A DNA stretch of 41,646 nucleotides, taken from positions 1 to 41,646 of the IMG/VR virus record IMGVR_UViG_3300035698_026476; one strand, given 5' to 3'. The position numbers and the translations under genes were made by a program. The stretch comes from a virus. The notes under the pieces are model-generated. The model was not told where the DNA came from. It worked only from the letters and a program-made list of their open reading frames with translations, and made no database searches. Shown here piece by piece: positions 5,734 to 14,781 of the stretch (within the stretch, counting starts at the first letter, position 1; the number at the start of each line of letters is the position of its first letter).

Positions 5734-6627
5734 ATGATAACCATAGATAATTCAATCCTTAAGGAGGTCAAGAAGTGCCACTTGAGTGCGGCATTGAGAT
5801 ACATTTATCACCTCCAAGGGGGGTGTGGGGTAGCGGGAGAGGTGGGATCATCCTTCCACCAAGGTCTAGAACAATGGATGTGGGGATCAACCCCGGAGGA
5901 TTGCCTTCTTGCGTTCGAGAAATACTATCGATCCAATGTCACCGTGGCTGAAATCTCAGATGATCGGTATGAATTTTCCAACTGTTATAAGATCTTCTCA
6001 GTATGGCTGGAAAAGAACCCCCTCTCGGAGAAACCATTCCGTGTCTTGGAAGCTGAGAAGGGAATCCTCTTCCCCCTCTCCTCGGATATTCAATTCTATG
6101 GAAAACGGGATGGGCTCATCGAAATGAAGCATACTTCCGAACGCCTACCCCTCGACCATAAGACCTGCAACAGAATTACCGATTGGAAAAAGAAGGCGTG
6201 GATGATGGGATCTCAATTTTCAGGTTATATGGAGGGATCAGTTCGAGAAGGCTACCCAGGAGATTCCCTCCTGGTGAATGTCATAGAGATATCCAAACTC
6301 CCCCTCTCGAAGCGTAAATGTTATATTCATAAGAAACCCTTCGAGGAGTGTTGGCCCCTCCATGTCTCATTCCAGGCCATTCTCGCTAAGCGGTCTCGGG
6401 CAAAAATAGAACTGTGGAAGAAGACCGCCCTTCAACTGGCCCACCAATTCATGGAGATGAAAGGGGAAGTGGGGCGGAATGGTCTTCAGAATATCCTCCC
6501 CACAGGATCATTTAATGATGATTGTCAATTTTGTGAATTTTTCAAGCTATGTAAGGAGGATTTCTCGGAAGTGGCATGGGGAAGGCTTAAAAGAAAAGAG
6601 TGGAACCCATGGCAAACAGGTCAATAG
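5734..6627 (+). CDS. PD-(D/E)XK nuclease, Cas4/RecB-like, with Fe-S cysteines
   Basis: A 297-residue protein with the layout of Cas4/RecB-family nucleases. A lone Cys at residue 15 (KKCHLSAALRY) precedes GSSFHQGLEQW; motif II appears in FYGKRDGLIE; the D-x-K motif is in LPLDHKTCN; a QFSGYMEG segment matches the QxxxY motif; and a C-terminal CQFCEFFKLC supplies three more cysteines. The 1+3 cysteine pattern is that of a 4Fe-4S cluster. Family role: DNA end processing in recombination. It precedes the Sak4-like ATPase, so joint action in recombination-dependent replication is likely. Confidence 0.85.
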   Translation: MITIDNSILKEVKKCHLSAALRYIYHLQGGCGVAGEVGSSFHQGLEQWMWGSTPEDCLLAFEKYYRSNVTVAEISDDRYEFSNCYKIFSVWLEKNPLSEKPFRVLEAEKGILFPLSSDIQFYGKRDGLIEMKHTSERLPLDHKTCNRITDWKKKAWMMGSQFSGYMEGSVREGYPGDSLLVNVIEISKLPLSKRKCYIHKKPFEECWPLHVSFQAILAKRSRAKIELWKKTALQLAHQFMEMKGEVGRNGLQNILPTGSFNDDCQFCEFFKLCKEDFSEVAWGRLKRKEWNPWQTGQ

Positions 6628-9802: not shown

Positions 9803-12274
9803 ATGAAACTTATTCCCCCTATCGGGCCCCTTGATGCATCGATCCTCCTTATAGGAGAGTTCCCTTCTCAAACTGAAGAACACCTTAGGGAGCCATTCTC
9901 AGGATCAAGTGGGGGACTCCTTAAACAGATATGGGCAGAAGTGGGCCTCATCAAGGATAATCTCCGAATAGATAACTTCCTCCAGTTCCGCCCCCATAAG
10001 AATACCATCTCATCGGTTCCGGAGGGTGTTTTAGAGAGTGCAACTTATCAACTCCACCAACGGATTGCCGCCCTGAAAGATCCCCTCGTTATTGTGCCTA
10101 CGGGAAATTACCCCTTGTTTGCCCTTACTGGAAAGGGAAAGGTAAAAGCCGCCTATAGGAAGAAATTTGGCTCATTCCTCTCTTCCACAACCAAGGCAGA
10201 GAAGGCTGCTTCCATTCACTCCCTTAGGGGGTCAGTTTACTTCTATGAGGATCTCAACGGTAGGAGGATCAAAGTCATCCCTACGATCCACCCCAAGGAT
10301 GTCCTGAAGATGTACAAATATAAGAAGCGAACCATCCGGGATTGGAAGTTGGTGGAGAGTGAGTCCCGGAGGAGATTTTATCCCACCCCCATTCGTCGCC
10401 ACTATGTGAATGATTCTACTGAAGTAGTAGAGAGATTCGCCTCCAAGGTCCGAACCTACAGGGGTGACCTTAAACTATCCATCGACATCGAAACATGGGG
10501 TGGGAGGTTGAATTGTGTGGGGTTCGCATACAGAGGGGAAGAATCCCTAACCATCGACCTCACCTCCAACCGGGATTTGTGGTTTCCATATGTTCGACGA
10601 TTATGCGAGGAGAAGGTGGATAAGATATTCCAAGGAGGATGGTATGACTATTATTGGCTCCTTCGGAAGGGAATAAAGATGGTTCAGTATAAGTGGGACA
10701 CCCTTGCCATGCACCATTGCTTAGATCCCACAGAATCCCATGACCTTGCCTTCCTAGCCTCTTACTTCACCACAACCCCCTATTGGAAGGATGAAGCGAA
10801 AGAAGCCGAGGAGATCCGAAAAAACGTATCCTCTCAAGGGGAGCTATTAAAATACAATGGCTTGGATGTTTGTGTTACATGGGAGGTTCAAAGGCGTCTA
10901 GAGGGGTTACTAGAGGAGGCTGGACTACTTTCCACCTACCACTCCCTCTATCCTACCCTCTATCCAGGGATGCTCTCCATGATGACCCATGGGGTGAGGG
11001 TGGATCGTCCTCGTCAAAAGGAATGGTCGGTAAGGTTGGAGGAGGAATGTGCTCAAATCGTAGCCCAACTCAACACACGGGCTGGAATGAACCTCCTGGG
11101 GAAGAAGGACTTCTCCGGAGATAAGCTCAAGGCATTCTTTTATGCTCGCCTTAGGTGTCCTAAACAGTATGCCCAAATGGGTCGTAAGGGAGGCAAGGAA
11201 CGTGGCATAACCCTGGATGAGAAGGCTCTTAAGAAGTTGATAATGCGGTATCCTCAAAAGGCCGAACCATGGGCTTCCATGGTCCTTCGTCATAGGGGAA
11301 TGAAGAAGAAAACCTACGTTTTAAGGAAGGGTCCCGACTCCGACCATAGGGTGAGATGCACCTACCGACCTACAACCGAACAAGGTAGGTTGGCGTCTTC
11401 TAAGAACCCCTACCGAACAGGATATAATCTCCAAAACATCGAACGGGAGAAGGGGGGCATCCGAACCACCTTCCACCCGGACTTTGATGAGTGGATCTTC
11501 ATCAGGATTGATATGTCTCAGATTGAAGATAGGGAATGCAAGATGTACACAGGGATCGATCGGATGAGGGAACTCGCCAACCGTCACCCTACGGTCTACG
11601 ATGCCCATACAGAAAACGCCAAATTAATTTTTCAAAAGGATGATATATCCAAGGATGAACGGTATTTTGGAAAGAAGGTAGTCCATGGAGCTCAACGTCT
11701 CATGACCGGAGTTAGGGTATCTGAAGAGTTATTGAAGGAAAACATCATCAAATCCCCTCGATATTGCCAAAAGTTGATTGATACCTATTTAGAAAAGAAC
11801 TATGAAATAAAAGACAATTATTTTCCCTTTGTAGAGGAACAACTCTATGGCCCAGGAGTGTTCTATAATTCTTGGGGGAGGAGGTTCGATCTTAGGGGGT
11901 GTAGAAAAGATTCTGAAGCCCTCCGAAAGGCTTGTTCTTTCTATCTCCAAAGTGAATGTGCTGATTTGATGAACCAATGGGGGGTGAGGGCATCATATGA
12001 TCTCATCCGGGAGAATGGGTTGAGGGCGTGCCTAAATATGCAAGTCCATGATGAAGTTATTATCTCTTCCCCTCCAGAGGAAGCTCATTTCATCGTTTCC
12101 CATTTATTTGCATCCCTGGAGCAACCTAGGGAGATTAGGGGTGGAACCTTGGTTGTACCCGCAGAACTAATCATTTCTCGCTCATGGGATGGTGGTGTGG
12201 AATTCCCTAAACTGCCATCCTCGGATGAACTAAACGAAGGAATAAATCACCTATTCAAGGGGGAAGGGGTATGA
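9803..12274 (+). CDS. fused uracil-DNA glycosylase-like / 3'-5' exonuclease / family A DNA polymerase
   Basis: An 823-residue three-part enzyme. Residues 1-190 match family 4-type UDG motifs (LIGEFPSQTEEHLREPFSG, FRPHKNT, TIHPKDVLK) but lack the cysteines of the usual Fe-S cluster. Residues ~220-370 carry the DnaQ-like exonuclease: ExoI IDIETWG, ExoII GGWYDYYWL with WDT, ExoIII YNGLDV. The polymerase follows: motif A RIDMSQIEDRE near 568, finger motif GKKVVHGAQRLMTG near 622, motif C VHDEVI near 748. All catalytic acids are present. The finger helix departs from the usual K-x3-[FYH]-G-x2-YG by lacking the second Tyr. Replicative polymerase of this phage. Confidence 0.92.
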   Translation: MKLIPPIGPLDASILLIGEFPSQTEEHLREPFSGSSGGLLKQIWAEVGLIKDNLRIDNFLQFRPHKNTISSVPEGVLESATYQLHQRIAALKDPLVIVPTGNYPLFALTGKGKVKAAYRKKFGSFLSSTTKAEKAASIHSLRGSVYFYEDLNGRRIKVIPTIHPKDVLKMYKYKKRTIRDWKLVESESRRRFYPTPIRRHYVNDSTEVVERFASKVRTYRGDLKLSIDIETWGGRLNCVGFAYRGEESLTIDLTSNRDLWFPYVRRLCEEKVDKIFQGGWYDYYWLLRKGIKMVQYKWDTLAMHHCLDPTESHDLAFLASYFTTTPYWKDEAKEAEEIRKNVSSQGELLKYNGLDVCVTWEVQRRLEGLLEEAGLLSTYHSLYPTLYPGMLSMMTHGVRVDRPRQKEWSVRLEEECAQIVAQLNTRAGMNLLGKKDFSGDKLKAFFYARLRCPKQYAQMGRKGGKERGITLDEKALKKLIMRYPQKAEPWASMVLRHRGMKKKTYVLRKGPDSDHRVRCTYRPTTEQGRLASSKNPYRTGYNLQNIEREKGGIRTTFHPDFDEWIFIRIDMSQIEDRECKMYTGIDRMRELANRHPTVYDAHTENAKLIFQKDDISKDERYFGKKVVHGAQRLMTGVRVSEELLKENIIKSPRYCQKLIDTYLEKNYEIKDNYFPFVEEQLYGPGVFYNSWGRRFDLRGCRKDSEALRKACSFYLQSECADLMNQWGVRASYDLIRENGLRACLNMQVHDEVIISSPPEEAHFIVSHLFASLEQPREIRGGTLVVPAELIISRSWDGGVEFPKLPSSDELNEGINHLFKGEGV

Positions 12275-12277
12275 TAG

Positions 12278-12523
12278 ATGAAAACAACCGTAACAATAGA
12301 AATCGAAGTAGAGGTGGAGTTTGGTGTCAGCCTTTTTTGTAAGGGTTCAAGGGATTCCCTTTGTGGGGTGGCAGGAGCAGGACCTCCCCTTGAACCGGAC
12401 ACCCCTGCAGAACTCGAAGATATAACCCTTGAGTATCCTAGTTTCGATGCTCTTGACAAGGATACTCAAGAACACATTAAAAGTGAATGCTGGAACAGCC
12501 TAGCAGAGGAACTAGATAAATAA
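12278..12523 (+). CDS. small acidic hypothetical protein
   Basis: An 81-residue ORF three bases after the polymerase stop, with GGGGGAAGGGG upstream. Beta-like start (TTVTIEIEVEVEFGV), Gly/Pro-rich middle, acidic helical end. It may be coupled to the polymerase. Function unknown. Confidence 0.6.
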   Translation: MKTTVTIEIEVEVEFGVSLFCKGSRDSLCGVAGAGPPLEPDTPAELEDITLEYPSFDALDKDTQEHIKSECWNSLAEELDK

Positions 12524-12529
12524 TTTAAC

Positions 12530-12703
12530 AGGCCAGTTGTGTAATTGGAAACGCATATTATATTCAGGTATCGGTTAACATCGATACTGACGAGCATCGG
12601 ACAGTTAAACCGAAAACGCTGATACTGACTACTGGATTCAGTTAGTCAAAATATAATATCAACTGAAAAGTTGTCCCGGTTCGAATCCGGGCTGGCCTGA
12701 CCA
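12530..12703 (+). tRNA. tRNA-like RNA (class II, Leu-like) with ~82-nt structured insertion in the anticodon arm
   Basis: A 7-bp acceptor (AGGCCAG with CTGGCCT), extendable to 8 bp by C12529-G12699, is followed by a D arm (GTGT AATTGGAA ACGC, with the GG and A14 of tRNAs), a class II variable arm (CAACT GAAA AGTTG) and a perfect T arm (CCCGG TTCGAAT CCGGG), with CCA encoded at 12701. The anticodon stem is a 10-bp helix, 12555-12564 with 12650-12659, enclosing about 82 nt. Removing that piece leaves loop TTCAAAA, anticodon CAA (Leu), with A as discriminator if the acceptor is 8 bp. The spliced stem would still be two base pairs too long, so a decodable tRNA is not certain. Confidence 0.7.
12566..12647 (+). 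ncRNA. structured insertion inside the tRNA-like RNA, possible intron or ribozyme
   Basis: Hairpin 1: GTATCG 12568-12573 with CGATAC 12582-12587. Its loop GTTAAC (12574-12579) is complementary to GTTAAAC at 12604-12610, giving a possible pseudoknot. Hairpin 3: TGACTACTG 12626-12634 with CAG-T-TAGTCA 12639-12648, one bulge. At 82 nt it is far shorter than known group I introns, and no group I core was found. Boundaries are ambiguous by one base (a C at both ends). Splicing or cleavage is inference. Confidence 0.45.
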
Positions 12704-12709
12704 ATTAAG

Positions 12710-12822
12710 CCCCGCCCCCTTTTATTAATCTTATAAAGGAGGTGCGAAATATGATAATTATAGTAAGATACATTCCATTACCGAATTGTAGGTGAATTAT
12801 CAGCACATGAACCGGGGCGGGG
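12710..12822 (+). repeat. 9-bp GC inverted repeat enclosing a micro-ORF
   Basis: CCCCGCCCC at 12710-12718 is the exact reverse complement of GGGGCGGGG at 12814-12822. In RNA it would close a 95-nt loop containing a strong ribosome site and a 14-codon ORF. Such pure GC arms are out of place in this AT-rich stretch, suggesting selection for pairing. Confidence 0.5.
12751..12795 (+). CDS. 14-codon leader-like micro-ORF
   Basis: AAAGGAGGTG precedes ATG at a good distance, then MIIIVRYIPLPNCR and stop. It lies entirely inside the loop of the GC inverted repeat and upstream of the gene at 12853. A regulatory leader peptide is possible; chance is the alternative. Confidence 0.35.
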   Translation: MIIIVRYIPLPNCR

Positions 12823-13473: not shown

Positions 13474-14781
13474 ATGACCCTATACAATCTAACATGCCCA
13501 ATCTGCTTTCACCCATCCCCTTCTAAGGTTCTCCAACTGAAATGCCCCCAATGTAATCAATGGTCGGGAGCCCTCTCTCACACCCGCCACCTCTCATCTC
13601 TTTATGTTCATATGTCCGGGAAGGGTGAATGTCCTCCGGAGTTCCATAAGTGGGCCTTCATCTCGCTCATCTCAGCATTGCTAGAGAACCGTGTATACAC
13701 TGAACTCCTCTTAGATCAACCCCTCTATCCAAACTTATATGTATTCCTCATAGGACCCTCCGGTCTAGGAAAGGGAAACTCCATAGGAGGCGTGTGTACT
13801 CTCCATCGGCAACTTGAAGAAGAGGGTCAAATCCGCATCTACCGAGGGGACGCAACCAAAGCCTCCCTCACAGATCTCTTGTCTCAGGGTGAGTGGTCAG
13901 AACAAGAAGGTTCTCATAAGGATGCCTCAGCCAGGATGTGGCTCATAATGGATGAACTAAAAAATGACCTAGGACGCTATCAACTCGCCCAAGAGTTCAT
14001 TCAAATGATGACAGCCATCTTCACAGAGTCAGGAGGGGATCGTGATAGCTCAACTCGCACAGGGGGAGCCCAAAAGATCAAAGGCTCATGTGTGACATGG
14101 CTTGCAGGCTCCACTCAAGATTGGCTCTTAAAGGCTATAGGAAGGGATGCCATTCAAGGAGGGTTCGTCCCCAGGGGCCTTTATGTATTCCAGGAAAGAA
14201 CCTCTCGTAGGATACTATCTCCTGCTTATCCATTCGATAGGGAGAAAGTGAAGGAATTCATCTTAGGGGAGTTAAGGCGGATACGCTCCCTAAAGGGTCA
14301 AATGTACCTCACACCCAACGCTCACATCTACCTCAAGGATTGGTATGAGGGGGCTCCCCAAGAGGAGGATTCAGTCCTTGCCCCTATGTATTCCAGAGAT
14401 AGAGAAAAGGTCCTTAAACTATGCATGACCTTAGTGGCATGTGAGGGAAATGAGATGTTGATCCGTCAATCTCATCTATATGAGGCCATCACCTTGATGC
14501 ACAGCCTTCAGAACTCATTCCCGAGGTTGATTAAGTTGTCCACCCAATCGAAGGAATCCATCAATATAGATCTCATCTATGAAACCATTAAGAGAAAATC
14601 AAATGGAGGGGGATGGGTGGAGAACCGTGAGGTCCTGCAGGCGTTGGCTCGTAGGAATATCCTAACTGAACATGTCAAACAAGCGGTGGAAAATCTTGAA
14701 GCAATGTGTAAGATTGAAGTCGAAGAAGGAAAAAGGGGAGGAGGAAGATATAAAATCCCCTCCTCCGGAGAACCCCTCTAG
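13474..14781 (+). CDS. DUF3987-type replicative helicase/ATPase with N-terminal zinc ribbon
   Basis: A 435-residue protein with CGGAGA before its ATG. Residues 8-30 form a zinc ribbon (CPIC and CPQC). The ATPase core has a P-loop-like GPSGLGKGNSI near residue 93, where Gly and Asn follow the Lys instead of a direct Ser/Thr, as in relatives of DUF3987, and a Walker B MWLIMDE near residue 163. The C-terminus (ESINIDLIYETIKRK... VENLEAMCKI) looks like a winged-helix region. Likely the replicative helicase working with the upstream polymerase. Last plus-strand gene, convergent with the late operon. Confidence 0.7.
   Translation: MTLYNLTCPICFHPSPSKVLQLKCPQCNQWSGALSHTRHLSSLYVHMSGKGECPPEFHKWAFISLISALLENRVYTELLLDQPLYPNLYVFLIGPSGLGKGNSIGGVCTLHRQLEEEGQIRIYRGDATKASLTDLLSQGEWSEQEGSHKDASARMWLIMDELKNDLGRYQLAQEFIQMMTAIFTESGGDRDSSTRTGGAQKIKGSCVTWLAGSTQDWLLKAIGRDAIQGGFVPRGLYVFQERTSRRILSPAYPFDREKVKEFILGELRRIRSLKGQMYLTPNAHIYLKDWYEGAPQEEDSVLAPMYSRDREKVLKLCMTLVACEGNEMLIRQSHLYEAITLMHSLQNSFPRLIKLSTQSKESINIDLIYETIKRKSNGGGWVENREVLQALARRNILTEHVKQAVENLEAMCKIEVEEGKRGGGRYKIPSSGEPL

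Follow-up and report, generated by a model that had tools for sequence, protein, structure and literature searches.

A tRNA-like element with a structured domain in place of the anticodon arm, located between the polA and primase genes of a phage genome

Between the DNA polymerase and primase genes of the phage genome considered here lies an element with a leucine-type tRNA body and no usable anticodon loop, which raises the question of whether the RNA is an interrupted tRNA that decodes after processing or an RNA that uses the tRNA shape for something else. The window, that is, the whole stretch of DNA analysed, is an entire IMG/VR virus record of 41,646 bases. The element (12529-12703, + strand) sits between an 81-aa ORF (12278-12523, +), the stop codon of which is 5 nt upstream of the acceptor stem, and a 114-aa ORF. 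Upstream and co-directional is a gene for a family A DNA polymerase with a UDG-like N terminus (PolA; 9803-12274, +), and downstream, again in the same direction, one for a DUF3987-type DNA primase (13474-14781, +). The identified structural genes (15.2-41.3 kb) are on the - strand. No promoter or terminator belonging to the element itself was found above chance level. Just 3′ of it, an inverted repeat (CCCCGCCCC.../...GGGGCGGGG; 12710-12725 and 12807-12822) encloses a strong Shine-Dalgarno sequence and a 14-codon ORF (12751-12795), and may serve the next gene as a leader or attenuator.

The acceptor stem consists of eight pairs, evident in both sequence and fold, between CAGGCCAG (12529-12536) and CTGGCCTG (12692-12699), the latter followed by the discriminator A and an encoded CCA ending at 12703. 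The first-pass annotation had described a tRNA-like RNA with a replaced anticodon arm at 12530-12703, and all the parts it described are found there; its start left out the eighth acceptor pair at 12529, which is required because the CCA must fall one base after the stem. U8 is at 12537, and the D arm (GTGT / AATTGGAA / ACGC; 12539-12554), seen in the sequence and in the ARAGORN cloverleaf, carries the canonical tertiary-contact bases A14, A15, G18G19 and A21. The variable arm, CAACT-GAAA-AGTTG (12660-12673), is of class II and flush; it precedes U48 (12674), which is able to pair with A15, and the T arm CCCGG-TTCGAAT-CCGGG (12675-12691). Both arms are apparent in sequence and fold. The body thus possesses the acceptor, D and T arms, U8, A14, G18G19, the TTCRA T loop and the CCA of a canonical tRNA, and the 5-bp anticodon stem with a 7-nt loop and U33 is missing.

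In the anticodon-arm position is a continuous, perfect 10-bp A-U helix, visible as an inverted repeat and in the fold, with ATATTATATT (12555-12564) as its 5′ strand and AATATAATAT (12650-12659) as its 3′ strand. It had been reported to close 82 nt containing two hairpins; the helix and the hairpins stand, and the domain between its arms is 85 nt long (12565-12649), 82 nt being the piece removed if TTC is joined to AAAA (candidate intron, 12566-12647, +). Hairpin 1 (CGGTTAAC / GTTAAACCG region; 12565-12621) has alternative folds within 0.6 kcal/mol, and hairpin 2 (TGACTACTG-GATT-CAGTTAGTCA; 12626-12648) is predicted from the fold. The proposed loop-to-strand pseudoknot is possible only, as the nested fold uses the same strands and a second nested fold of the insert lies within 0.6 kcal/mol. 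A 9-base direct repeat, GATACTGAC, occurs inside the insert (12583-12591 and 12621-12629); since it offers the upstream GTATC a choice of two partners, the insert might alternate between folds.

The element is more than chance. Its whole-element fold has a z score of -5.0, with none of 200 dinucleotide shuffles equally stable; the 10-bp helix plus insert alone gives -4.4 to -4.9, and the insert without that helix -2.7. A descriptor covering the acceptor and T arm only (5-bp T arm, TTCRANY loop, flush 7-bp acceptor) picks out the element and produced no matches in 1.54 Mb of control sequence, either reversed or in five shuffles.

Standard tRNA finders miss genes of this sort. ARAGORN in its default mode (no introns) found no normal, uninterrupted tRNA fold at the element, and its tmRNA search there was empty. 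The Rfam check that had been proposed yielded no family at gathering score, and at E ≤ 5 the sole match was a chance overlap with the T arm. When TTC is joined to AAAA, with 82 nt removed, ARAGORN calls a tRNA-Leu(CAA) with an 8-bp acceptor, a class II arm, the loop TTCAAAA and an anticodon stem of 7-8 bp rather than the usual 5, which bears out the earlier expectation of a Leu loop on a stem two pairs too long. With introns allowed (-i), the native sequence is instead read as Asp(GTC) with 83 nt out, because an AATAT repeat lets the stem slip; this reading is less likely, as it is without nt 26, leaves five unpaired nucleotides before the variable arm, and combines a class II body with an Asp anticodon. 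Of all cut pairs enumerated, 14 restore a 7-nt loop on a 5-bp stem, with U33 in place and position 37 a purine; in none of these 14 is the anticodon CAA. One of the joins is readable as UAA, needing two extra nucleotides on each side of the stem, so that a 5-bp stem and a Leu anticodon are not wholly incompatible. UCA, the anticodon of tRNA-Sec, arises only by removing 84 nt, which also leaves two extra nucleotides on each side. A bulge-helix-bulge (BHB) motif, defined as two 3-nt bulges around a 4-bp helix, is absent from all of the enumerated cut pairs.

Among the records searched the element is a singleton. Blastn found no homologues in phage records, the 26-mer of the variable and T arms has no match in IMG/VR, and 8-mers from PolA or primase retrieved no close relatives there; terminase relatives have an identity of only some 40%, and PolA had no match in any of the 22 longer records tested. 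Alignment of PolA reached 80 loci, the closest relative being L143 (36% identity over part of PolA, 30% over primase), which has no such element in its polA-primase interval. A single-sequence covariance model recovered only the element itself in the window plus 36 related records, and had no match at E ≤ 1 in 27 further ones (63 PolA-related records in total). A pattern for the insert matched once in IMG/VR, inside a protein gene of L325, and was judged a chance match, and nearly all matches to the pattern AATTGGNAA..GGTTCRAATCC look like neighbouring tRNAs. In the search for a host tRNA donor or attB-like match, the 24-nt 3′ end had no exact matches in GTDB species genomes.

The acceptor/T-arm scan covered 1.54 Mb, made up of the window together with 36 related records (some included only in part). 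It returned seven matches, of which one is the window element and only one is a canonical tRNA-Leu; non-canonical tRNA-likes outnumber canonical tRNAs among the matches. The tRNA-like of L337/L099 (L337:5249-5416) is 168 nt long with a tRNA-Leu-like D arm and a fold z of only -1.3, and is separated by 4 nt from the gene before it and by 30 nt from the exonuclease gene after it. That of L356 (12057-12161, -) is 105 nt long with a CCA (z -2.3). In L363 (1938-2037, -; 100 nt, z -4.7) an 8-bp hairpin stands in place of the D arm and a 15-bp hairpin in place of the anticodon arm, and in L385 (472-524, -; 53 nt, z -3.1) a single hairpin lies between acceptor and T arm. ARAGORN called none of these four. 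A stretch in L380 with two T arms may hold two tRNAs of about 80 nt each with irregular D arms. What these tRNA-likes have in common is the acceptor/T half only, the part that charging enzymes, RNase P and RNase Z recognise; they differ from each other and are not sequence homologues of the element. Removing an insert from the anticodon arm cannot yield a normal tRNA in L363, L356 or L385, which in this group favours a non-decoding class over introns. Elsewhere, one tRNA-Leu-like body (AGTCAGG...TACAGGTTCGAATCCTGTCCTGACT) recurs in L173, L217:919-1012 (-), L235:762-887 (+), L236:9371-9474 (-) and L272, its anticodon arms being rearranged. Two tRNA genes, L284:762-904 (+) and L231:2454-2624 (-), have their additional 60-100 nt not in the anticodon loop but in the variable region, which in L231 includes a 14-bp hairpin.

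Seven IMG/VR contigs contain tRNA-Leu genes with a conserved insert of 32-36 nt (CTACGGAACATCTGC-loop-GCGGGTGTTCAAA) exactly between U34 and A35: L286:5454-5572 (+), L288:7141-7258 (-), L320:6617-6733 (+), L321:10535-10622 (+), L322:12721-12841 (-), L323:1027-1141 (-) and L324 near 5739-5859 (+). These Leu(UAA) genes are located in tRNA arrays of uncultured phages, and no other UAA-reading tRNA-Leu was called in the arrays of the seven contigs. Two-sided changes occur in all six helices counted, the insert hairpin included (15 two-sided pairs versus a shuffle mean of 6.0, a value reached in 0 of 500 shuffles); the covariation score is 0.43 versus 0.14, and 97% of cells are paired versus 30-49% when the alignment is slid. 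The insert is far more conserved than the tRNA bodies, and neither INPHARED nor the GTDB species genomes contain a match to it. It resembles a tRNA intron, if a very small one. The insert of the window agrees with it in the N34/A35 site only. The anticodon stem is 5 bp there as against 7-8 bp in the joined form of the window element, and the sequences differ, on account of which we do not place the latter in this family.

Could the element nevertheless be a pre-tRNA-Leu(CAA) in which C34 and A35 are separated by a structured intron of 82 nt, neither group I nor BHB, the removal of which results in a decoding tRNA? We consider this rather unlikely, though a serious contender. The TTC^AAAA join is called Leu(CAA) by ARAGORN, the class II arm, A73 and A15-U48 fit leucine, and introns are known from phage tRNAs: the same Rfam search did pick up group I introns in two contigs, L187 and L197, each within a tRNA gene, and the 32-36 nt Leu(UAA) inserts interrupt the same N34/A35 site. 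However, splicing would leave an anticodon stem of 7-8 bp, the intron boundary can be drawn in more than one way (with -i, ARAGORN favours the Asp reading), and the insert sequence is unlike that of the small-insert family. In addition, the element is the sole tRNA-like gene found in the genome, where TTG makes up just 15% of Leu codons. No known intron type fits the element. There is no group I match (RF00028), and 82 nt is less than the group I catalytic core of approximately 100 nt (PMC4033280), in agreement with the remark in the first-pass annotation that the insertion is too small for a known group I intron. Of its suggestion of a minimal intron, the Leu(CAA) join holds, and the group I or BHB signature and a stem of normal length are lacking.

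Two further explanations do without decoding. That a captured tRNA gene was disrupted by an inserted palindrome and is now a functionless, decaying or hybrid gene seems rather improbable to us: the element is a singleton without near relatives, and its insert has no other copy in the window or IMG/VR, but every arm of the tRNA core is intact, including the tertiary-contact bases and the CCA, and the insert adjoins the anticodon helix without a gap, lengthens it by perfect pairs, folds better than shuffles, and shows no visible target-site duplication. A mobile insertion was rejected, there being no second copy in the window. Still less probable is a processing mark ("tRNA punctuation"), whereby the fold would mainly guide RNase P/Z to cut the early transcript between its polA and primase parts, with the insert as filler. 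The flush intergenic site in a co-directional run, the like placement of the L337 element, and the retention of the RNase P/RNase Z-recognised half in all of the tRNA-likes found are in its favour; it leaves the full D and variable arms and the stable insert unexplained, and the polA-primase interval of L143, the closest relative, is without one.

The reading that we favour, at slightly below an even chance, is that of a non-decoding tRNA-like RNA in which a Leu-type class II body presents a structured domain on a 10-bp helix. The element combines a full tRNA core, tertiary-contact bases and CCA, yet has no usable anticodon loop; the anticodon stem of the joined form is 7-8 bp and not 5, further tRNA-likes exist in related phages, and the site is co-directional, 5 nt after a gene. 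Against this, the element is a singleton, the tRNA-likes of related phages are not homologous to it, and the joined form has a well-formed Leu loop, TTCAAAA, that an RNA with no decoding task would have no need to keep. Of the three options raised in the first-pass annotation, the evidence speaks most strongly for a tRNA mimic that is not there to decode, on account of the 8/5 acceptor, the overlong anticodon helix, the leucylation determinants and the other non-canonical tRNA-likes. In E. coli the anticodon of tRNA-Leu is not an identity element; leucylation is determined by A73, A15-U48, G18G19 and the D/T contacts U54/U55/C56/A58, and variants without the anticodon and variable arms stay active (PMC9976931). 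All of these determinants are present in the element when read with an 8-bp acceptor, E. coli rules being possibly not those of the host. Judged from its sequence, the element probably passes for a leucine tRNA with host enzymes and would be unable to read codons. An 8-bp acceptor in tRNA-Sec lowers affinity for EF-Tu approximately 100-fold (PMC7609411), and the determinants together with the 8/5 acceptor lead to the prediction of an RNA that is charged with leucine and kept out of translation.

Under the non-decoding reading, the element would be transcribed within the early polA-to-primase transcript and excised, with its encoded CCA kept, by host RNase P and 3′ processing enzymes acting on the acceptor/T half. 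The tRNA body would protect it, and LeuRS would probably charge it, since the anticodon arm is dispensable for leucylation. The 8/5 acceptor-T stack and the absence of an anticodon loop would then bar EF-Tu and ribosomal decoding, and the inserted domain might be the effector: most likely, as we conjecture, a decoy, or a surface that binds a tRNA-acting protein or RNA of the host. A bolder proposal, which we put forward as doubtful, is that small phages with PolA and a DUF3987 primase carry fast-evolving, non-decoding tRNA-likes that retain only the acceptor/T half and have effector domains in exchange for the lower one; the element would then be a naturally leucylated anti-host decoy displaying a folded RNA domain.

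A review from 2014 describes bacterial tRNA genes as structurally uniform save for group I and II introns (PMC4033280), to which tRNA-Sec-like species and allo-tRNAs are later additions (PMC7609411). The element resembles class II bacterial tRNA-Leu in the variable arm, A73, A15-U48, the D/T-loop contacts and the CCA, and differs by its 8-bp acceptor and by the 10-bp helix with 85-nt domain that stands for the anticodon arm. It shares with tRNA-Sec the 8/5 acceptor-T domain (8 + 5 pairs); the D stem of tRNA-Sec is 6 bp and that of the element 4 bp. A long acceptor, variable arm and anticodon stem, as in the element, are also features of tRNA-Sec, selC* tRNA-Cys and allo-tRNAs, the last being 8/4 or 9/3; unlike the element, all three retain an anticodon loop (PMC7609411). 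Irregular tRNA-like polycistrons from soil metatranscriptomes (Mukai et al. 2017), in the account given by PMC7609411, have odd arms and were not chargeable by E. coli enzymes; there they are mainly 8/4 with extra loops between the acceptor and D stem, and a replaced anticodon arm is not described (PMC7609411). Group I introns likewise interrupt the Leu anticodon loop, in tRNA-Leu(UAA) as well as other tRNAs, but possess a P3-P9 core and match RF00028, and the archaeal intron motif, BHB, was found at none of the cut pairs. The element matches no known family of small self-cleaving ribozymes (Rfam up to E = 5), and the earlier suggestion of a self-cleaving RNA has no support; a hammerhead-like string, CUGACGA...GAAA, appears by eye to be chance, stem II being missing. 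Like the element, tmRNA has tRNA-like ends and a longer helix with other structure replacing the anticodon stem; the element has neither a tag reading frame nor room for one, and its D stem is intact and accompanied by a class II arm. Finally, the engineered tRNA scaffold retains the acceptor, D and T arms and exchanges the anticodon stem-loop for an RNA of interest (PMC3753655). That scaffold is man-made, whereas the element is natural and built on a Leu-type body; if the non-decoding reading is true, it would be the natural counterpart of the laboratory design, with all leucylation determinants and no decoding, and a tool for asking what a phage gains from uncoupling the charging of a tRNA from decoding.
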